Below, one piece after another: positions 5,125-33,736 of a stretch of DNA of 64,000 nt (the first letter of the stretch is position 1; each line of letters begins with the position of its first letter). Source of the stretch: Chloroflexota bacterium (GTDB lineage: Bacteria > Chloroflexota > Anaerolineae > UBA4142); the NCBI GenBank assembly GCA_023381515.1, contig JAMCQI010000049.1, forward strand, positions 130,390 through 194,389, given 5' to 3'. Both the position numbers and the translations under genes were made by a program. The notes below the pieces were generated by a model. That model was not told the DNA's origin and ran no database searches. It saw nothing but the letters and a program-made list of their open reading frames with translations.

Positions 5125-6879
5125 CTAACCCTCCCCCATCCGCGCCACCCGGCCGCGAACCAGCGTGAGCGGGACGATAGCGCAGAGCAAGCTGGCCGCA
5201 CCCCCGGCCGCCAGGCCGACAGCTTGACCCACAATTTCCGGGCCCCCTAGGAGTGCAAACGCAATGGGAGGACCAAAAAAGAGGACGAGAACAGTGCCGA
5301 GGTAACCGAAACTCGCCAGGGCGGCAGCGCAACCGGCAGCGCCCCGCGTCATTCTGCGTGGGTCTTGCCACTGCAGATTCGCGCCGACCACGCCAAAAGC
5401 GAGATTGACGCCTGCCGCGCCCGCAATCGCGAGCGCAATCACCGGCATCCCAAACAGTAATGCGGCCGGTCCGGTTCCCTGCCACACGGAAAAGAGGAGC
5501 AGGAACCCCCATCCGAGCGCGAGGGTGGGAAGGAAGGCAATGAGGAACTTGGCTCCCAGAAGCTCATTTTCGCTCACCGGCGCTGACTTGATCAGCCAAT
5601 AGTGCTTGCCCTCTTGCGAAAAGCTCATCAATGCCAGCCGCGACAAGAGCGACCAGCCGACAAAGAGCGCAATGGCGACATTGCCATAGACCCATGCACT
5701 TTTGATTGTCTGTACGAACCACGCAGGTGCTTCACCTCGTCCCGTGGACAGGTCGCCGCCTCCCCGCAAAAAGACCATCCCGTAAACCAAACCCAGAATC
5801 ATCGGCGTGAGCAGCTGAGACATATTGCGCAGGTCGCGGCGAATCACGCGCGCATCTTTCGCAATCAATCCGCGCACAGGCGCGGGCAGCAAGCGACCCA
5901 ACAGCGCGTCTCCAGGCGCGCTGGCCGCCGTCGCGGCGCGGACCGGCCGGGTCGTTTTCCGACGACGAGTTCCTACCTGCATGCGCGTCCAACCCGTGAA
6001 GTAGAGGCGCTCGGCAGTACTCAGGGTCACTCCAAAGATGGCGCTCGCGAGACCGACCGTGACGAGCAGAAAGAAGACTCCGGAGACCCAGCGGCCCTGG
6101 CCAATATCGACCAGTCCGCGTCCTGCCCACGCGAGAGGCGACCAGGGCACATCCAGACGTGAGAGCAGACCAAGCGCCTGCGACACCTGCGCCTGAGAGG
6201 GCCGTGACGACCGGGCCAGGTACTGGGATTGGGAGCAAACAAGTGAAAGGAGGCTGCCGAAGAGCGCCAGGACCTCCGCAACCCGGCGCGCCGGAAAGAT
6301 GCGCACAATGCCCATGACGAGCAAGCTCGCCAGCCCCGCGGCGCCAAGCACCAAGGCGACCAGAACGACGACGACGAGCGGATAGTAGAGGACATTGTAC
6401 CCACCGGTCACACCCAACCCGAAGAGTACGGGCAATCCGAACAGGAGGACGAGACCGAGGTTGGGCAGCACCGCCTGGAGCATCTTGGTCACGAACACTG
6501 CGCGGACCGGCACCGGCGAGCTGAGCAGAAAATCCATGTCCCCGGCCAGATACAGCGCCTGGAGCAGAACGCCGGAACTAAAGATCAGTACTCCGCCGAA
6601 CGCAATCGTAGCGATCAGGACCGGGACGGTGGAGAGAAAGAGGGTGGGATCGACGAGGCCGGCCAGTTCGGGGGAACGCAGCGCGGAGAGGATGGCCCAA
6701 CTGACCGCAAAGACGCCGACCGCGGCTCCGAGCACGATCAGGGCGATGACCACATAGCCGATCTTGCGCAGCCATTTCGCTCGCCGAAAGTTGCTTAAGG
6801 TGATGGACCAGCTGAGACGCAGCAACTTCCAGACATAGCGCCACAGGGGGTATTCGGCACGCACGCGGGCCAGACTCAC
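5125..6879 (-). CDS. ABC-2 type transporter permease, 584 aa
   Basis: Large polytopic membrane protein with about 12 hydrophobic segments and no ATPase motifs. Examples are GYVVIALIVLGAAVGVFAV near the N-terminus and AVGLAAGGAASLLCAIVPLT at the C-terminus. Its GTG start (6877-6879) overlaps the stop of the upstream ATPase gene in a GTGA arrangement, so the two form a translationally coupled exporter. The substrate is unknown. It converges on the formate dehydrogenase operon with only 15 bp between stop codons and no obvious terminator hairpin. Confidence 0.85.
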   Translation of the reverse strand: MSLARVRAEYPLWRYVWKLLRLSWSITLSNFRRAKWLRKIGYVVIALIVLGAAVGVFAVSWAILSALRSPELAGLVDPTLFLSTVPVLIATIAFGGVLIFSSGVLLQALYLAGDMDFLLSSPVPVRAVFVTKMLQAVLPNLGLVLLFGLPVLFGLGVTGGYNVLYYPLVVVVLVALVLGAAGLASLLVMGIVRIFPARRVAEVLALFGSLLSLVCSQSQYLARSSRPSQAQVSQALGLLSRLDVPWSPLAWAGRGLVDIGQGRWVSGVFFLLVTVGLASAIFGVTLSTAERLYFTGWTRMQVGTRRRKTTRPVRAATAASAPGDALLGRLLPAPVRGLIAKDARVIRRDLRNMSQLLTPMILGLVYGMVFLRGGGDLSTGRGEAPAWFVQTIKSAWVYGNVAIALFVGWSLLSRLALMSFSQEGKHYWLIKSAPVSENELLGAKFLIAFLPTLALGWGFLLLFSVWQGTGPAALLFGMPVIALAIAGAAGVNLAFGVVGANLQWQDPRRMTRGAAGCAAALASFGYLGTVLVLFFGPPIAFALLGGPEIVGQAVGLAAGGAASLLCAIVPLTLVRGRVARMGEG

Positions 6880-7646
6880 CGCAGCACCTCGGCGATGGCC
6901 GCGTCCTCCGCCCCGCCCGTCAATCCCAGAAAGACATCTTCCAGGTTCGTCGCGCCCCCGCTGGACGCGCGCAGCTCACTCATCGTGCCCACGGCGACCA
7001 GTTCACCCTTGTCGATTATGCCGATCCGGTCGCACATGCGCTCGGCGATTTCTAGAATGTGAGTGGATAGGAATACGGCCGCCCCGCGATCGGCCATTTG
7101 ACGCAGCATGTCTTTGATAAGGCGGGCGGACTTGGGGTCGAGCCCGACGGTTGGCTCGTCGAGGACCAATACATGCGGGTCGTGCATGAGAGCAGCGGCG
7201 AGCGCGGTTTTCTGCCGCATGCCGTGGCTGTATGAGTCAATCAGATCGTCCCCCGCTTCGCCGAGGTCGAACAGGCGCAAGAGTTCGTCGATGCGCCGCT
7301 CGACCTGCCCGTGCTCCATATCGTAGAGATCGCCCACAAAGCGGAGCAATTCGCGTGCGGAAAGCTTGGGATAGAGGTTCGGCTCGTCGGGTACATAGCC
7401 GCTCGCCGCCTTGGCTTGCATGGGTTGGGTCACGACGTCGCATCCCGCGACCCGAACGACGCCCGACGTGGGGCGCAGCAGGCCAACAATCATCTTGATC
7501 GTCGTCGTTTTGCCCGCGCCATTGGGCCCGAGAAAACCGAAAATCTCGCCGCCGCGCACTGATAAAGTCACATTGTTGACGGCGGTCTTGTCGCCATAGC
7601 GCTTGACCAGATGGTCCGTTTCAATCAGGACATTGGCAGCTGCCAC
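6876..7646 (-). CDS. ABC transporter ATP-binding protein (CcmA/YhaQ type)
   Basis: About 256-residue nucleotide-binding subunit for the adjacent permease. Walker A GPNGAGKTTT, a YSHGMRQK signature (variant of LSGGQ typical of ABC-2 ATPases), Walker B VLVLDEPTVGLDPKSARL and switch His in STHILE are all present. Start is the GTG at 7646, six bases after GGAGAGG; a longer open frame reaches 7718 but has no better RBS. Expected to energise efflux at the inner face of the membrane. Confidence 0.9.
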   Translation of the reverse strand: MAAANVLIETDHLVKRYGDKTAVNNVTLSVRGGEIFGFLGPNGAGKTTTIKMIVGLLRPTSGVVRVAGCDVVTQPMQAKAASGYVPDEPNLYPKLSARELLRFVGDLYDMEHGQVERRIDELLRLFDLGEAGDDLIDSYSHGMRQKTALAAALMHDPHVLVLDEPTVGLDPKSARLIKDMLRQMADRGAAVFLSTHILEIAERMCDRIGIIDKGELVAVGTMSELRASSGGATNLEDVFLGLTGGAEDAAIAEVLR

Positions 7647-7929
7647 AATCACCTCTCCGCATGTTCGGGCGGCCCTGCCGTCGTAAGCATGATCCCCGGT
7701 CAGAGACCAATCCCTCACTCATAGTATACCAGATGGAGAGACAGTCTGACAAATGCGACCGCGGCCCTCACCGCGCCTGATGAATAGGGACAGTGCAAGC
7801 ACAAAGGTAGGGTTAGACCCCATAGACCCCGCGCGCGATGATGGTATACTGTTTTTGCCTTACTTGTCACCTTACGCAGACCCGAGTCCTCTTCCCCTCT
7901 TGGAAGAGCGACATGATGGAGGATGAAAA

Positions 7930-8991
7930 ATGCCCGCCGTGCGCGCGTCTCCAGGGCCGTCCCGTCCAACAAAGCTGCTGCAATCCACAGACCCGTTCAG
8001 CTCACGGTACAGAGGAGAGACCTATTATGGTCTTCCGCCCATCAAGTCCAGCTACTATGGTTGGCTGATCGTCGCGTACTTTTTCATTGGGGGCCTGGCA
8101 AGTCCGCTCCCATTCATTGCCAACATCGTCGATCTCTTTGGTCGCAAGCAAGACCGTGGAGTGGTGCGGGCGGGCCGATACATCGCGCTATTGGGCGCGC
8201 TGATCAGTCCTGTTCTCCTCATCGGCGATCTGCACACGCCGCGGCGCTGGTACAATATGCTGCGCATCTACCGGCGCACCTCGGCGATGTCCATCGGCGC
8301 ATGGGCGCTCGCCACTTTTGGCACCTTTACCGGGGTCGTCGCGTTTGGCCAGGCTCTGGACGATCTCTTTGGTTGGACCTTTGGACGCTGGGTGGCGCGC
8401 CTCTTTACATGGCCGGCCGCTCTGGCGGGCGGGGTCGTCTCGCTTTATACCGGCACACTGCTCGCGGCCACAAATATTCCCCTCTGGACGGGCGGTTTCC
8501 CGTATCTCTCGTCCCTCTTCACCAACTCGGCAGTTTCGACGGCGACGGCCGCGCTGACACTCGCGGCGGAAGCATCTCAAGCCTCGCCGAGCACGCGCCG
8601 GCGTCTCACTTGGCTCGCGCTCTTCGCCAGTGCCACTGAGCTCTTCTTTGCTTCCCTCGTCACCCGCCAGTGGCGGCGTTTCAAGGTGGACGCGCCGCTG
8701 CAAGATGCCTCTATCCGGCGCGGGTGGCGCTATGGCGTCCTTGGCCTCGGAATTGTTGGCCCTCTCGTCGTGCATGTGCTCGAAGTTGTCAGGGGTCGCA
8801 CTCTCCCTCACGTTTCAGCGCTCGCCCCCGTTGGCGCCCTCGTCGGGGGCTTTCTCATGCGTTACGTCTTTATCTTCGCCGGGAATGCTTCCGGCCGTAT
8901 CCCCGAAGACTATTTCCTCTCGACGCAGCCTTCCAGCGGTTCTGGCGAGATTGTCCTGCGGGCCACCGTGCCCGCAGGCGCAAGGAGCTGA
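7930..8991 (+). CDS. NrfD/PsrC-like membrane subunit (polysulfide reductase family)
   Basis: 353-aa polytopic membrane protein with about eight hydrophobic helices. The N-terminal element YYGLPPIKSSYYGWLIVAYF and FIGGLAS are typical of the NrfD family, the quinone-interacting membrane subunit of complex iron-sulfur molybdoenzymes. GGAGG at 7918-7922 lies seven bases before the ATG. The formate dehydrogenase genes at 1-5 kb lack a membrane gamma subunit, so this protein could be their quinone-reducing partner; the physical separation by a convergent ABC pair makes this inference only. Confidence 0.8.
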   Translation: MPAVRASPGPSRPTKLLQSTDPFSSRYRGETYYGLPPIKSSYYGWLIVAYFFIGGLASPLPFIANIVDLFGRKQDRGVVRAGRYIALLGALISPVLLIGDLHTPRRWYNMLRIYRRTSAMSIGAWALATFGTFTGVVAFGQALDDLFGWTFGRWVARLFTWPAALAGGVVSLYTGTLLAATNIPLWTGGFPYLSSLFTNSAVSTATAALTLAAEASQASPSTRRRLTWLALFASATELFFASLVTRQWRRFKVDAPLQDASIRRGWRYGVLGLGIVGPLVVHVLEVVRGRTLPHVSALAPVGALVGGFLMRYVFIFAGNASGRIPEDYFLSTQPSSGSGEIVLRATVPAGARS

Positions 8992-27434: not shown

Positions 27435-29579
27435 TTGAAGTGGACGACATTGCGGCACAACGGGGTGGCTTTCCCGCCACCTTATGAATACCGCGCACTC
27501 ACTGTAAAAATCAAAGGCGAACCTTATCGGCTCAACCCAGCTCAAGAAGAGATGCTGATGGCATGGGCCAAGAAGAAGGATACGGTCTACGTCCAGGATC
27601 CCATTTTTCAGCAGAATTTTCTCGGCGACCTCCGGCCTAATCTGCCCGAACGCTTCGCCGACATTACTCTTGACGACATTGACTGGACGGAGCTGCACGC
27701 GATTGTCGAGCGCGAAAAGACGGCCAATTTGACGCCCGAGGAAAAGAAAAAGCGCTCGGCGGAACGCAAGGCCGTTCGTGACGACTTGAAGGCGCAGTTC
27801 GGGCAGGCTGAGGTGGATGAGGTCGAGTGCGAGATCGGAGCCTACCTGGTCGAGCCGCCTGGAATCCTGATGGGCCGCGGCGCTCATCCCCTGCGGGGTA
27901 AATGGAAACCGCGCGTCGAGCCGGAAGAGGTGACGCTGAACCTCGACGAGGATGCCGTTGTGACTTCGGCACCCGAGGGACACCAGTGGGGCAAAGTCGT
28001 CCACGAGCACGACTCGATGTGGGTCGCCTCGTGGTACGACAAGCTTTCGCAAAAGCGCAAGTACGTTTGGCTCGCGGACTCGTCGCACTTGCGTCAAGAG
28101 CGTGACAAGGAGAAATACCTCAAGGCCGCCAAGCTCGAAGGCGGCCTTGGGCGCGTGCGCGCGGCCATCCGCTCCGGTATGAATCACCAAGACCGGCGGG
28201 CTCATACCGGTATCGACCGCGAGGAAAAAAAGCTGCACGCCAGGGCCAAGGAACTCGACGCCAAGTTGCTGCAAGTGCAAGCGACCGAAGCCGGAAACGC
28301 GGACAAGCGGAAGAAGCTGGAAGACGATGCGGCCGCGGTCCAGAAGGATTTGGAGGCGTTGGCCAAGCGGCGGGAGAAGGCGCACGCGGCGGAAATGAAG
28401 ACACGCCAGATCGCGACCGTCTGCTACCTCATCGACCGGCTGGCGATGCGCGTGGGCGACGAAAAGGACGAAGACGAAGCGGATACGGTGGGTGCGTCCA
28501 CGCTGCGGGTGGAGCACGTTCACGTTCTCCCCGATCGCATCGAATTCGATTTCCTCGGCAAAGACAGTGTCCAGTGGCAAAAATCCATCCCGCGGGATGA
28601 CAACGAGCGCGCTCTCGCACGAAACCTGCAGGATTTCATGCGCGGGAAAGAGCGGACCGAACAGATCTTTGACAAGATCGACTCGACTCATGTCAACCGC
28701 TTTCTGGGCCAGGCGCTGCCCGGCCTCACCGCCAAGGTGTTCCGCACCTACCACGCGACGACGACGGTGCGAAGCTACCTGGGAAACAAAGGCGAGTTAA
28801 AGCAGGACGCCGCGACCTTTGAAAAGGAGTATGTCGCCAAGCTGGCAAATCTCGAGGCGGCCATCACGTGCAACCACAAGCGGACGCCGCCCAAGAATTG
28901 GGAACAGAATCTCGTCAAGAAAGAAGAGGCGGTCGAGAAATTACGCGCGGCCAAGCCCGACGTCACGAAACTGGACGCCGAAATCGAGAAACGCGAGACG
29001 GCACTGAATAAACTGCTTGAAGAGCAGAAACAACTCGAGGCGGACAAGCCGCGTCGCGTCGAGGAAAAAGAAAAGACTCTCGCCGACCTGCAAGGCAGGC
29101 CAGCGCCTGAGGCGGGGGAAGAGGCGGCGAAGCTAGAAAAAGAGTCCCAGGCGGCCGAAAAGGCATTGGAAAAGACCAGGGCCGAAGTGGCGAGAAAAGC
29201 CGAGCGCTTGAACGAACGGATTGCCAAGGCCCAAGAGGCTCTGGCACACGCCAGAGAGGCACCGGCGCGCGCGACCCGAGAGTACGAAGAACGCCTCGCC
29301 AAGGCCCAACGCCAGCTCGATCTGGCCAAATCGACCCGTGACTATAACCTGGGTACGTCGCTCAAAAACTATATCGATCCGCGAGTGTATAAGGCGTGGG
29401 GCGATTACGTGGGCTTTGAGTGGAAACGTCTCTACACCAAGACGCTTCAGCGCAAGTTCGCCTGGGTGGACCAGTCCCGGATGCGCTGGAACGGGAGTAA
29501 CCAAGGCTCTACTCCGGAAGACGATACGATGGGCGGCGCCCAAGAATTACGGGCAGAGGCTCACGCCGTCGCCGATTGA
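27435..29579 (+). CDS. DNA topoisomerase IB, eukaryotic (large) type
   Basis: 714 aa; relaxes DNA supercoils by a 3'-phosphotyrosyl intermediate. Unlike the short poxvirus/Deinococcus-type bacterial enzymes, it has the eukaryotic N-terminal DNA-binding core (KWTTLRHNGVAFPPPYEY; PPGILMGRGAHPLRGKWKPR), catalytic core and a coiled-coil linker. All five catalytic residues of human Top1 are present: R339 (YLIDRLAMRVGDEK), K376 (FDFLGKDS), R437 (LTAKVFRTYHAT), H481 (TCNHKRTPPKNW) and Y646 (NLGTSLKNYIDPRV). Two differences: an extra charged coiled-coil segment of about 65 residues (260-325) before R339, and a 40-residue C-terminal tail. Start is TTG with AGGAGAGGAG about 10 bases upstream. A terminator follows. 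Confidence 0.93.
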   Translation: MKWTTLRHNGVAFPPPYEYRALTVKIKGEPYRLNPAQEEMLMAWAKKKDTVYVQDPIFQQNFLGDLRPNLPERFADITLDDIDWTELHAIVEREKTANLTPEEKKKRSAERKAVRDDLKAQFGQAEVDEVECEIGAYLVEPPGILMGRGAHPLRGKWKPRVEPEEVTLNLDEDAVVTSAPEGHQWGKVVHEHDSMWVASWYDKLSQKRKYVWLADSSHLRQERDKEKYLKAAKLEGGLGRVRAAIRSGMNHQDRRAHTGIDREEKKLHARAKELDAKLLQVQATEAGNADKRKKLEDDAAAVQKDLEALAKRREKAHAAEMKTRQIATVCYLIDRLAMRVGDEKDEDEADTVGASTLRVEHVHVLPDRIEFDFLGKDSVQWQKSIPRDDNERALARNLQDFMRGKERTEQIFDKIDSTHVNRFLGQALPGLTAKVFRTYHATTTVRSYLGNKGELKQDAATFEKEYVAKLANLEAAITCNHKRTPPKNWEQNLVKKEEAVEKLRAAKPDVTKLDAEIEKRETALNKLLEEQKQLEADKPRRVEEKEKTLADLQGRPAPEAGEEAAKLEKESQAAEKALEKTRAEVARKAERLNERIAKAQEALAHAREAPARATREYEERLAKAQRQLDLAKSTRDYNLGTSLKNYIDPRVYKAWGDYVGFEWKRLYTKTLQRKFAWVDQSRMRWNGSNQGSTPEDDTMGGAQELRAEAHAVAD

Positions 29580-30340: not shown

Positions 30341-30369
30341 TTGACATAGAACAAAAGTTCTGCTATAAT
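30341..30369 (+). promoter_or_regulatory. Consensus sigma70 promoter of the RadA-like/PolB cassette
   Basis: Exact TTGACA (30341-30346), 17-base spacer, exact TATAAT (30364-30369). A LexA-type box fills the spacer, so repressor binding would block RNA polymerase. Strength plus occlusion suggests tight repression with strong induction. Confidence 0.88.
30348..30361. promoter_or_regulatory. LexA-type box 1
   Basis: Perfect inverted repeat AGAAC-AAAA-GTTCT between -35 and -10. The GAAC-N4-GTTC core is the LexA/DinR box of Gram-positive bacteria; I recall the same form for green non-sulfur bacteria. Confidence 0.8.
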
Positions 30370-30378
30370 CTCAAGGTA

Positions 30379-30392
30379 AGAACAAAGGTTCT
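30379..30392. promoter_or_regulatory. LexA-type box 2
   Basis: Second perfect inverted repeat AGAAC-AAAG-GTTCT, 31 bp from box 1 (three helical turns), just downstream of the predicted transcription start. The phasing favours cooperative binding on one DNA face. Confidence 0.8.
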
Positions 30393-30415
30393 GATTCTGC
30401 CCTCCGCGGAGGCTT

Positions 30416-31042
30416 ATGGAAACGGGGATTACGCTCCTGTGCGGCGCGGCTATACAAAACGAATGGATTTTCAAGCCGATTGTGCAGATGACGGGACGCG
30501 GCCGCACCGTTCTTGTCGTCGATGGCGAGAATTCTTTTCGCTCGTACTGGATTGCGCGCTATGCGCGCGAAATGGGATTGGATCCTCGAACCGCGCTGGA
30601 GTATGTCAAACTCTCACGCGCCTTTACGTGTTACCAGCTGGCTGAATTGATCACCCAGAAAGTGGCTCCGCTCGCCCACGCCGGCTGCGCCGGTATCGTC
30701 TGTCTCGGTCTCCTCGCGACGTTGAACGACGAAGATATATCCCTCTCAGAAGCCGGGCGTCTGCTCTCCAATATTACGGCGGCACTCAAGACGCTCGCGC
30801 GGTCTTGCCCCATTTTAATTACCATAAGACTGCCGTCTCGGCGCGCGGACCCGCGCCTTGGGTTGGTCCATGCTTTGATGCGCCAGGTGGACAAGGCCTA
30901 TGTGATCGAGCCGGGCGCGGCTCCAAGGATAAAGACGGAAGCCGACGAGCCAACCCTGGCCCCGCCCGCCGGGGTCGGTGCGAATCAGTTGGCCCTTGCG
31001 CCAATGCTCGACGACAAATGCGTGAAAGGTAACGAGCGATGA
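30416..31042 (+). CDS. RadA/Rad51-like protein lacking Walker A and B residues
   Basis: 208 aa. Aligns by eye with the RecA core of RadA/Rad51: GITLLCG (strand before P-loop), VLVVDGENSFRSYWIARYAR (like LYIDTEGTFRPERI), GLDPRTALEYVKLSRAFTCY and a long helix. The P-loop position reads GAAIQNEWIFK (residues 10-20) with no GKS/T, and the Walker B strand reads GIVCLGLLA without Asp, so ATP hydrolysis is unlikely. First gene after the LexA-boxed promoter; ATG 30416 with GGAGG only three bases upstream. Likely a structural adaptor for DNA or polymerase, analogous in position to ImuA. Related proteins are not known to me by name. Confidence 0.8.
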   Translation: METGITLLCGAAIQNEWIFKPIVQMTGRGRTVLVVDGENSFRSYWIARYAREMGLDPRTALEYVKLSRAFTCYQLAELITQKVAPLAHAGCAGIVCLGLLATLNDEDISLSEAGRLLSNITAALKTLARSCPILITIRLPSRRADPRLGLVHALMRQVDKAYVIEPGAAPRIKTEADEPTLAPPAGVGANQLALAPMLDDKCVKGNER

Positions 31043-31122
31043 GGGAAACTTAACGTGGAACCTTGAACCTGAACCACGCGGTTTAATTGAGCGGACAGTA
31101 GGTGAGGAAATAGGATGGTGCG

Positions 31123-31413
31123 ATGGGACGCACAAACGAAACGTCGACGCAGCTAATCCGGTTCCATCAACAAGAACTGGCCAAGTTTTTTACGGCGCTG
31201 CGCAAGGCGGACCAGGAAGCTTTTCAAGACCTCTTTGCGCTGGCGCAGTTTCATATCGCGCCGTTGGCCTTTTCGGGCGCGGCGGACCTGCAGATGCTGA
31301 TCTACTTTGCGATGCTGCTGGAACAGCACAAGATGATCCTGCACATGCAGAGCGCGATCAAATATCTGCTGGAGCAGCAGGGGGACGATGCAGATCAATG
31401 GCTGGATCCTTGA
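31123..31413 (+). CDS. Small helical protein of the PolB cassette (96 aa)
   Basis: 96 aa, predicted almost wholly helical: TQLIRFHQQELAKFFTALRK, then DLQMLIYFAMLLEQHKMILH and a terminal acidic tail. Its 3' end overlaps the polymerase start by 26 bp, so translation is coupled. GAGGAAATAGGA lies 8-10 bases before ATG 31123. No family recognised; probably a subunit linking the RadA-like protein and polymerase. Confidence 0.75.
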   Translation: MGRTNETSTQLIRFHQQELAKFFTALRKADQEAFQDLFALAQFHIAPLAFSGAADLQMLIYFAMLLEQHKMILHMQSAIKYLLEQQGDDADQWLDP

Positions 31414-33736
31414 CGTCTATGCGGCGGGGACCGGCATGGTCGTCTGGGCGATGGACACGGAAGGCGCCGCCCACTGCCTGCACGATACCCTGGCGCCTTC
31501 GTTTTTTGTTTACGGACCGGATGCCGAACTGCACGCGGTGTGCGTGATGCTCGCCGCGACACGGGCGCCGGTCCGCCTGCGCCGGGCGAAGCGCTACGAC
31601 CTGTTCCTGCGCCGCGAAATCGTCGTGCTCGAGGTGCAGGTGGAGCCACCGGTCTTGCTCGCGTCGCTCTTTCGGCGCGTGTACCGCTTTAAACCGGCGC
31701 TTTCCTATTACAATGCCGATCTCGCCCCGGCCCAGTTTTACTATTTCGCCAAGCGGCTCTTTCCGCTCGCCCACTGTGAGATCGAGGCGGATGCCGGCGG
31801 CCACATTCGAGAGATCCACGCGCTCGACTCGCGGTGGGACCTGGATTATGAGCTGCCGCCGCTCAAGTACATGTTCCTGCGGCTGGAGGGCGAAGCGCGG
31901 AATCCGAACCACGGGTTCCGCGGGCCGCTCGAGGTGCAGACGGACGACGGGACCCGCCTCCTCAATCCGGAAGACCCATACGAAATGCTCGTTCACCTCG
32001 GCGAGTTGATCGACAAGTACGATCCGGACGTGCTCATTTCCGAGTACGGAGACTCGTTCATCCTGCCCGAGCTCTTGCGCCTATCCAAGTATTATAAAGT
32101 CACCCTGCCGCTGAACCGCGATCCCGCGCAGACGCCGCTTTACAAGAAAGAATATTCCTACTTTTCCTACGGGCGGATCGTATATCGGGCCTCTTCGCAA
32201 ATCCTCTTTGGCCGCTGGCACATTGATTTGCGCAACGCGTTCCTCGTGGACGACTATTGGCTGGAAGGCGTGTTCGAACTGGCGCGGCTCACCGGATTGA
32301 ACGTTCAAAAAGTGGTGCGCACGTCGACGGGCACGGGCATTTCGGCGATGGAAGCGGCGACGGCGTATGCCCAGAACATTCTGATCCCGTATCAGAAACG
32401 AGAGCCGGAGGATTTCAAGAGCGCGGGGGACCTGGTCCTCACGGACAAGGGAGGCCTGACCTACCGGCCGATTTTGGGGCTGCACGAAAATGTCGCCGAG
32501 CTGGATTTCGTGTCGATGTATCCGTTCATTATGGCCAAATTCAACATCAGCCCGGAGACGGTGAATTGTCCGTGCTGCGAGAACCAGGCGGTCCCGGAGA
32601 TCGGCTATTCGATTTGCCGGAAACGGCAGGGGCTGATTCCGGCGACGCTGGAACCGCTCGTCGCCAAGCGGGTGCGGTACAAAATGACGGCGAAGCAACT
32701 GCCGGAGGGGCCGCAGCGGGAAGCATACAAGCGGCGATCGAGCGCGATCAAATGGATTCTCGTCACCTGCTTTGGGTACACGGGCTATAAGAACGCGCGC
32801 TTTGGCAAGATCGAAGCGCACGAATCGATCAATGCGTATGCACGCCACGCGCTCCTCCAGGCCAAAGAACTGGTCGAGGCGCGGGGATTTCAAGTCTTGC
32901 ACCTGCTCGTCGACTGCCTGTGGGTCAAGAAGAAGGACGCGCGCGAGGAAGACTATCGGGCGCTCATTGCCGAAATCACGCACGAGACGGGCTTGCCGAT
33001 CGCGCTGGAGGGCGTCTATCATTGGATCGCGTTCCTGCCGGCGCGTGAGCACGCGCGCTTGAGCGTGCCGAACCGTTACTTTGGCGTTTTTCACGACGGC
33101 ACGGTCAAGATCCGCGGGATTGAGCTGCGGCGGAGGGATACACCGGCGTGGATCAAGCAGGTGCAGCAGCAGGCGATTGACATCCTAGCGACGGCGCAGA
33201 ACCGGCACGAGTTCCGCGAGCGGGCGGTGGAGGTGTTGGACCTGATCTCGGATGCGTTGAACCGTCTCGAGTCGCAGCAGGTGAATTATCGCGATCTCGT
33301 GCTCACGTATCACCTGACGCACGATCCGAAAGAATACCGGCACAATACGTTGAATGCGATCGTGGCACGCGCGCTGATGGAGCGGGGCGTGTCACTGCGG
33401 CCGGGGGAATCGATCCAGTATATTATTACGGCGGCGGAGGCAGCTTGTCCGAGCGACCGGGCGCAAGCGTTGGAACTGTTTGATGCGACGCGCGGGTACG
33501 ACAGCGACAAGTATGGGGAGCTGCTCTTGCGCGCGATGGAGACGATCCTGCAGCCGGCCGGGCTGAACCGGAGCAAGATTGAGGAGAAAGTGGCAAAAGC
33601 GCGGAAAGCGGCGAACGGGGAGGATGGGCCATCCCTTGTGGGCACCGGCAATGAGGCGCCGTTCCGCGGCAGCAAGAGAAAGGCGCGGCGGCCGGTGGTG
33701 TACACGTTGCCGTTGAATAGTTGGACAGTTGTGTAG
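31388..33736 (+). CDS. Family-B DNA polymerase with degenerate exonuclease and motif C
   Basis: 782 aa, PolB order intact: N-terminal domain, exonuclease-like domain (about 155-335), palm/fingers (365-515), thumb. Motif A LDFVSMYP (D373) is kept, as are Lys 455 of motif B (KWILVTCFGYTGY) and the thumb KIRGIELRRRDTP. Motif C reads LLVDCLWV: D509 is kept but the second Asp of DTD is Leu 511. Exo I is RLE (R165 for Asp), Exo II ends FI (I225 for Asp), Exo III YAQNI lacks its Asp. A CPCC...C cluster (394-410) sits after motif A. Proofreading is almost surely lost and synthesis is doubtful. Resembles inactivated archaeal PolB2-type polymerases as I recall them. ATG 31388. Confidence 0.9.
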   Translation: MQINGWILDVYAAGTGMVVWAMDTEGAAHCLHDTLAPSFFVYGPDAELHAVCVMLAATRAPVRLRRAKRYDLFLRREIVVLEVQVEPPVLLASLFRRVYRFKPALSYYNADLAPAQFYYFAKRLFPLAHCEIEADAGGHIREIHALDSRWDLDYELPPLKYMFLRLEGEARNPNHGFRGPLEVQTDDGTRLLNPEDPYEMLVHLGELIDKYDPDVLISEYGDSFILPELLRLSKYYKVTLPLNRDPAQTPLYKKEYSYFSYGRIVYRASSQILFGRWHIDLRNAFLVDDYWLEGVFELARLTGLNVQKVVRTSTGTGISAMEAATAYAQNILIPYQKREPEDFKSAGDLVLTDKGGLTYRPILGLHENVAELDFVSMYPFIMAKFNISPETVNCPCCENQAVPEIGYSICRKRQGLIPATLEPLVAKRVRYKMTAKQLPEGPQREAYKRRSSAIKWILVTCFGYTGYKNARFGKIEAHESINAYARHALLQAKELVEARGFQVLHLLVDCLWVKKKDAREEDYRALIAEITHETGLPIALEGVYHWIAFLPAREHARLSVPNRYFGVFHDGTVKIRGIELRRRDTPAWIKQVQQQAIDILATAQNRHEFRERAVEVLDLISDALNRLESQQVNYRDLVLTYHLTHDPKEYRHNTLNAIVARALMERGVSLRPGESIQYIITAAEAACPSDRAQALELFDATRGYDSDKYGELLLRAMETILQPAGLNRSKIEEKVAKARKAANGEDGPSLVGTGNEAPFRGSKRKARRPVVYTLPLNSWTVV

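Follow-up and report, generated by a model that had tools for sequence, protein, structure and literature searches.

A PolB2 mutasome operon preceded by predicted LexA operators in a Chloroflexota bacterium

The stretch of DNA analysed here, referred to as the window, comprises 64 kb of contig JAMCQI010000049.1 from a Chloroflexota bacterium (assembly GCA_023381515.1), and positions are given in the numbering of the window. It contains a cassette of three genes on the forward strand that encode an inactivated protein of the Rad51/RadA fold (iRadA), a small helical protein (PPB2) and a family-B DNA polymerase (PolB2), preceded by a sigma-70 promoter and two predicted LexA boxes (Table 1). The two boxes are separated by 31 bp, start to start, and are the only exact copies of AGAACN4GTTCT in the window. 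In 100 dinucleotide shuffles of the window, the mean number of copies was 0.05 and two copies were never obtained (0/100). A chance origin of the boxes was ruled out by these shuffles together with the conservation of the boxes among relatives. The original prediction, made from the sequence of the window, had described a consensus promoter with a perfect box in its spacer and a second box 31 bp further on, and both the coordinates and the match at all twelve hexamer positions confirm this description.

Table 1. Positions of the features in the window and in related loci. Labels such as L001 refer to the best 80 of at least 549 relatives, plus added lexA, recA and viral loci.
Feature	Location	Strand	Evidence or remark
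Sigma-70 promoter, TTGACA-N17-TATAAT	window 30341..30369	+	12/12 consensus matches; -35 TTGACA 30341-30346, -10 TATAAT 30364-30369, spacer 17 bp
Predicted LexA box 1, AGAACAAAAGTTCT	window 30348..30361	+	within promoter spacer; exact AGAACN4GTTCT
Predicted LexA box 2, AGAACAAAGGTTCT	window 30379..30392	+	directly after -10 hexamer; exact AGAACN4GTTCT
iRadA, Rad51/RadA-fold protein, 208 aa	window 30416..31042	+	open reading frame, Pfam, profile alignment, fold match
PPB2 (arCOG07300-type), 96 aa, starts MGRT	window 31123..31413	+	open reading frame, model, motif
PolB2, family-B polymerase, 782 aa	window 31388..33736	+	open reading frame, PF00136, residue alignments
Candidate operator TTCGC-N6-TTCGC, Acidobacteriota	L008, L019, L021, L022, L024, L041, L045, L063, L078
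Candidate operator CGACA-N4-TGTCG	L014, L033, L048, L053, L056, L059, L073, L029		upstream of iRadA
S24 repressor	L010 4034-4606	+	HTH_3/CI-type domain, no LexA_DNA_bind match
S24 repressor	L012 4435-5007	+	as above
S24 repressor	L031 2311-3063	-	as above
S24 repressor	L033 4090-4914	-	as above
S24 repressor	L059 4008-4694	-	as above
GerE/LuxR-type helix-turn-helix gene	L001 4607-5005
GerE/LuxR-type helix-turn-helix gene	L002 4613-4993
GerE/LuxR-type helix-turn-helix gene	L003 4630-5007
GerE/LuxR-type helix-turn-helix gene	L052 4660-5073
GerE/LuxR-type helix-turn-helix gene	L060 1564-1971
GerE/LuxR-type helix-turn-helix gene	L066 4667-5092
GerE/LuxR-type helix-turn-helix gene	L077 4613-5017

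The iRadA of the window matches the Rad51 domain PF08423 (E 1.3e-6), and its AlphaFold2 model (mean predicted local distance difference test score, pLDDT, 83.5) gave Dmc1, RadA and Rad51 chains as the top Foldseek matches in the PDB (best E 1.7e-10). In a profile alignment to RadA, the column of the Walker B aspartate contains a leucine, and the expected P-loop stretch, placed by eye, reads GAAIQNEW and has no GKT/S. The inactivated ATPase site and the absence of the N-terminal domain, both marks of the PolB2 operon, are thus found in this protein. Domain match, fold match and alignment agree with the predicted RadA/Rad51-fold protein without the P-loop lysine and the Walker B aspartate. The start codon at 30416 places an MxxG block at the N-terminus, and this block is shared by 12 of 14 homologues in the alignment, while the two most divergent ones have a longer N-terminus. 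A start 24 codons later, suggested by the 184-aa length of many homologues, was rejected in view of this shared block; the shorter homologues differ by earlier ends and not by later starts.

The model of PPB2 (mean pLDDT 85.1) shows long helices, with the N-terminal arm left free, and the PPB2 reading frame overlaps that of PolB2 by 26 nt, as anticipated for a 96-aa helical protein overlapping the next gene. The polymerase matches the family-B domain PF00136 (E 9.4e-32); against family models it scores 396 bits for a PRK05761-type model and 67 bits for the highest-scoring “DNA polymerase II” model, and all of these scores lie below the curated cut-offs. Alignment to PDB chains reveals that the catalytic residues D373 of motif A, K455 of motif B and D509 of motif C are retained, whereas motif C reads LVD, with the first aspartate replaced by L507, and the asparagine and aspartate of Exo II are replaced by tyrosine and isoleucine. 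Exo I was placed by eye and not through the PDB alignment. All 80 aligned PolB2 rows keep D373, K455 and D509, all have I, L or Y at the first motif C position, and all lack the asparagine and aspartate of Exo II. A Rad51-like FxxA stretch, FKSA, is located at residues 343-346, ahead of D353-K354. Over 26 rows, D353 is invariant and K354 nearly so, while the phenylalanine and alanine of FKSA are present in 54 and 45 of the 80 rows, respectively. The original prediction called the polymerase degenerate, which is correct with respect to the lost motif C aspartate and exonuclease residues but need not mean that the enzyme is dead, since the archaeal Dpo2 is active as a translesion extender. Although the PolB2 family was first read as inactivated (Rogozin 2008, PMC2527604), Dpo2 of S. 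islandicus is an active polymerase that has no exonuclease activity and extends mismatched ends (Feng 2022, PMC8764526).

An operon of PolB2, arCOG07300 and an inactivated RadA has been described in archaea and several bacteria, and in some bacteria lexA lies within the same predicted operon, from which a role in the DNA damage response was inferred (Makarova, Krupovic and Koonin 2014, PMC4104785). The names iRadA and PPB2 are from Timinskas and co-workers (2025, PMC11791011), who reported that the gene order in bacteria is solely iRadA-PPB2-PolB2, that lexA is enriched near bacterial polB2, that PPB2 carries an MGRT arm, that the DK motif of PolB2 follows a Rad51-like docking stretch, and that the modelled PolB2 mutasome has a stoichiometry of 1:1:3. 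By its sequence, the cassette in the window is assigned to this already described kind of operon, since the gene order, the MGRT arm, the inactive RadA and the losses in motif C and the exonuclease site all match; the three families, the FxxA-like stretch and the link to DNA damage are likewise shared (PMC4104785, PMC11791011). The belief that no PolB-based SOS cassette of this kind had been described was mistaken, as both papers already contain it. The difference is that the link to LexA in the window consists of two operators in the promoter, whereas the papers cite a neighbouring lexA gene, and the word “promoter” does not occur in the main text of PMC11791011. A literature search, which covered few subscription journals and the articles without their supplements, found no paper that deals with PolB2 cassette operators in bacteria. 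The data on operators, particularly those for phyla in which no lexA adjoins the cassette, extend further than the published text examined.

To place the cassette among its relatives, 84,980 species were scanned, each represented by one genome, which gave at least 549 relatives, and the best 80 of these were kept, with phylum labels taken from the titles of the sequence records. Linkage was counted over the 67 loci with at least 1.5 kb of upstream sequence, leaving out 13 shorter ones, with iRadA and PPB2 profiles that were built from the same loci (for iRadA also from further proteins). Both iRadA and PPB2 are located beside polB2 in 62 of the 67 loci, and the three-gene linkage assumed in the original prediction is thus conserved. 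One or both partners are missing in the fetched upstream DNA of L025, L030, L037, L044 and L079. The PPB2 profile, whose seeds were chosen by the [MV]GRT motif, found the protein in 63 of the 67 loci, with MGRT in frame in 59 of the 63; seven were no seeds, and MGRT is present in four of these seven. In a quick tree of 80 rows, built from the window plus 79 of the 80 relatives kept and containing no archaeal PolB2, the window is placed beside its nearest relative L001 (Thermoflexales), to which its polymerase is 66-67% identical. All 18 Chloroflexota rows, window included, form one group with a support of 99, and the 12 Acidobacteriota rows likewise cluster together. The viral collection yielded two PolB2 relatives, 38% and 36% identical, and the iRadA motif was found beside neither of them, on which grounds a placement of the cassette on a virus was rejected. 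One of these two relatives, on a contig filed as viral (L132), has an MGRT-type protein upstream.

The sequence GAACN4GTTC is present upstream of the cassettes in the Chloroflexota relatives (17 loci, the window set aside), exactly in 12 and with one mismatch in 5, so the boxes that were expected before orthologous cassettes are indeed present in this phylum. The rest of these 17 loci, 156,059 bp, contains two exact copies. In L001, the box occupies the same place of a good promoter (TTGACATAGAACATTTGTGCGTATATAAT) as in the window. The search for lexA covered 14 genomes, which represent all 17 loci except L005, L060 and L070, and gave a match in 12, of which 11 were strong (E 2.9e-13 or better). 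An exact box is located within approximately 185 bp upstream of each of the 11 strong lexA matches. As judged by eye, each of these boxes lies right behind TTGAC and before a -10-like hexamer, which is also the placement of box 1 in the window. The recA gene was matched in 13 genomes and 11 loci were examined, leaving out G004 (a C-terminal piece) and G009 (the pieces L143 and L146). A box with at most one mismatch is present within 500 bp in nine of the 11 recA loci and absent from this range in L134 and L137. A variant, GAACN4GTGC, occurs in either orientation at seven of the 11 recA loci and also at the cassettes of L001, L004, L005 and L006. No lexA was found in the window, and in none of the 17 Chloroflexota stretches does the cassette have a LexA-like neighbour. 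The comparison strongly supports the SOS control that was originally proposed for this three-part polymerase cassette, and the predicted control by LexA can be regarded as well supported by sequence.

Some of the related genomes contain second LexA-like genes (L081/L093, L094 and L098), and one of these genomes has the two genes arranged in tandem. Exact box pairs 30-31 bp apart, close to the 31 bp of the window, precede the genes of L094, L098 and L081. In L079, polB2 (5951-8295) stands alone behind an exact box 50 bp upstream.

The validity of GAACN4GTTC in all phyla was rejected, since few exact copies are located near the cassettes outside the Chloroflexota, and other operators were therefore sought. 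The expectation that this box precedes homologous cassettes held for the Chloroflexota but not for other phyla, where the operator is different or was not recognised. In the Acidobacteriota, TTCGC-N6-TTCGC is located near the start of iRadA in 9 of 12 loci and before lexA in all five lexA loci with a strong match, while a looser TTCGC-N6-7 pattern has five matches in all 68 other loci (725,992 bp). Among the three loci without the element, iRadA reaches the contig end in L023 and L067 and has a short, broken frame in L026. The element of L024 lies 37 bp beyond the start of the iRadA profile match and may therefore sit within the frame. A sixth, weak LexA match (L128) has no TTCGC element, and a LexA-like gene was found beside the cassette in none of the 12 fetched Acidobacteriota stretches. 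We also compared lexA and cassette regions through 16-bp palindromes. Control regions matched too, and for this reason only L043, L034 and the loci with lexA and cassette on one stretch were used. This comparison missed the Acidobacteriota element because it is a direct repeat. In L043, CTGTATATTTTTACAG is located approximately 490 bp before iRadA and CTGTATATTTATACAG before lexA, representing a third shared element.

Among the Bacteroidota and Ignavibacteria, exact copies of CGACA-N4-TGTCG are present near the cassette in 7 of the 22 loci with iRadA, and additionally in L029, and five exact copies occur elsewhere in 286,193 bp. In L059, the element separates iRadA from a divergent S24/HTH_3 gene, and in L033 it lies at the 5' end of an S24/HTH_3 reading frame. 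Many other loci of these two groups have no recognisable operator. LexA-like neighbours, in the Nitrospirota always immediately upstream of the cassette and on the same strand, were found at 11 of 15 Nitrospirota loci, 9 of 28 Bacteroidota/Ignavibacteria loci and one of six others. Ten of these 21 neighbours were run against Pfam, and five were canonical LexA (L036, L047, L040, L069 and L038), while five were S24 proteins with an HTH_3-type domain and without LexA_DNA_bind, so the notion that all LexA-like neighbours are lexA was abandoned. The four Nitrospirota neighbours among the ten are split evenly, with L036 and L047 canonical and L010 and L012 of the S24 type. A 2021 paper on non-canonical LexA in Bacteroidetes (PMC8565304) mentions neither PolB nor Ignavibacteria in its main text.

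The chances seem about even that control by LexA or a LexA-like S24 protein is general for the bacterial PolB2 mutasome, with repressor and operator swapped from phylum to phylum. The series would consist of GAAC-N4-GTTC in the Chloroflexota, TTCGC-N6-TTCGC in the Acidobacteriota, CGACA-N4-TGTCG in the Ignavibacteria, where some loci have a divergent S24/HTH_3 repressor gene next to it, and lexA or an S24/HTH_3 gene as the first gene in the Nitrospirota. In several large groups that are for the most part uncultured, PolB2 would then be a principal mutasome induced by damage. A GerE-domain protein, encoded by the first gene of the operon in about half of the Chloroflexota, would be a fourth partner or regulator.

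For the window itself, we consider it very probable that LexA represses the cassette and that the operon encodes a translesion mutasome of the PolB2 type. The genes, the promoter, the boxes, their conservation and their match to the lexA operators of related genomes are observed, and a complex of this kind, active and with a role in mutagenesis, would be expected from published models and archaeal biochemistry. In the undamaged cell, LexA dimers on box 1, between the -35 and -10 hexamers, and on box 2 would hold the promoter shut. With box 2 about three helical turns further on, both dimers would bind to about the same face of the helix and cover the spacer and the start region. Upon damage, RecA filaments would induce the self-cleavage of LexA, and the operon would be transcribed. 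The complex may then form from PolB2, one iRadA and probably three PPB2, with PolB2 docking on iRadA by its Rad51-like FKSA stretch and the MGRT arm of PPB2 placed near the active site. Its role would be to extend mispaired primer termini beyond a lesion once a base has been inserted by a different polymerase, for which the Y-family DinB is a possible candidate. A simple replacement of Y-family polymerases by PolB2 was rejected, as 19 of the 27 genomes searched (27 of the 39 handled), which are metagenome-assembled genomes (MAGs) of unestablished completeness, keep a Y-family match, 16 of them just one.

Several observations weigh against this interpretation. Copies of GAACN4GTTC with at most one mismatch are common in the rest of the Chloroflexota loci (66 in the 156,059 bp), and the five one-mismatch cases therefore rest on position, and four of them also on the recA-type variant, and not on their count. 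The 17 Chloroflexota loci are not independent, since L060 and L070 are from one MAG and L070 is almost identical to L066. In L079, the box is kept while iRadA and PPB2 are missing beside the polymerase. Two of the 14 Chloroflexota genomes searched gave no lexA match, and the weak match in G013 (E 1.6e-4) has no box upstream. The operator match is drawn from relatives, the nearest being L001, and not from the lexA or recA of the host itself. Outside the Chloroflexota, CGACA-N4-TGTCG is absent, even with one mismatch, from 13 of the 22 Bacteroidota/Ignavibacteria loci with iRadA, and in part of the Nitrospirota and Ignavibacteria the neighbouring regulator is a non-canonical S24 protein. Finally, the tail of the window iRadA, NQLALAPM, does not fit the search pattern for a beta-clamp motif, which is matched by 6 of the 17 Chloroflexota iRadA rows, window included; in operons of this kind, such a motif may occur in iRadA or PolB2 but is not universal.

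The residue losses in Exo II and motif C, common to all 80 rows, are also what would be expected if the cassette were controlled by LexA but the polymerase catalytically dead, in which case the complex would have a structural or regulatory role at stalled forks. This was the first published reading of the family (PMC2527604; PMC4104785), but it is unlikely in our view, since the motif A aspartate, the motif B lysine and the second motif C aspartate are kept in the same 80 rows, and Dpo2 of S. islandicus, in which the first aspartate is also replaced, is reported to be a robust polymerase without exonuclease (PMC8764526, PMC11791011). It is less likely still that a different repressor of the S24 family, either a second LexA-like protein or one of the CI type, occupies the boxes in place of the main LexA. 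Additional LexA-like genes that have their own box pairs do occur in related genomes (L093, L094, L098), and S24 neighbours of the HTH_3/CI type are present in the Nitrospirota (L010, L012) and Ignavibacteria (L031, L033, L059). However, none of the 17 Chloroflexota stretches has a LexA-like gene beside the cassette, and all 11 main lexA genes carry the same box in their promoters, which was also found near recA at nine of the 11 loci examined.

The original prediction had seen in the cassette a mirror of imuA-imuB-dnaE2. The plan is indeed shared, with a RecA-fold accessory, a small partner, a non-standard polymerase and SOS control, but that the cassette would be a new PolB-based analogue unrelated to described systems is very improbable, since bacterial cassettes with these three families in this order have already been published (PMC4104785, PMC11791011). 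The three proteins contain no Y-family or C-family polymerase domain, in agreement with the original statement that the parts are not homologous to ImuB or DnaE2, the Y-family and C-family members of that system. A closer published analogy is the Pol V mutasome of E. coli (UmuD'2C-RecA), which also has a RecA-family partner docked by an oligomerisation motif and a small subunit with an N-terminal arm, although its polymerase is of the Y family and its small subunit is different (PMC11791011). DNA polymerase II of E. coli (polB/dinA) is a family-B enzyme that is induced by SOS and has an extender role, but it is a single subunit with an active exonuclease (PMC11791011), whereas the window PolB2 has two linked partners and, judged by its residues, neither the 3'-5' exonuclease nor the intact motif C of that enzyme. 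The lexA-iRadA-PPB2-PolB2 operon of Leptospirillum is likewise tied to LexA, but there lexA is inside the same predicted operon (PMC4104785), while the cassette in the window has no lexA neighbour.

The published guess of damage control rested on the neighbouring lexA, and operators that are common to the cassette and the lexA of the same phylum turn it into a direct, testable prediction. They reveal the link to LexA in two phyla whose fetched stretches had no lexA next to the cassette, the Chloroflexota (0 of 17) and the Acidobacteriota (0 of 12), and the operator sets may help to map the LexA regulons in these phyla.

Eight of the 17 Chloroflexota relatives contain an additional gene of approximately 125-141 aa between the box and iRadA (the seven listed in Table 1 and L070), and a GerE (LuxR-type) domain was identified in all seven of those scanned. 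By eye, some of these proteins show a membrane segment or an N-terminal part resembling CopG. The cassette in the window has no such gene, though its nearest relatives L001-L003 have one, and the available texts on the PolB2 operon make no mention of a GerE protein as a fourth partner. Upstream of the cassette, positions 27435-29579 (+) of the window encode a full-length DNA topoisomerase IB of the eukaryotic type, with the N-terminal, core and C-terminal domains PF02919, PF01028 and PF14370. A 2008 paper described a eukaryotic-like form of this enzyme for the Thaumarchaeota and, from viruses and several bacteria, shorter forms (PMC2621148). The topoisomerase of the window has many metagenomic relatives, and several of the at least 120 matches listed are named Chloroflexota.

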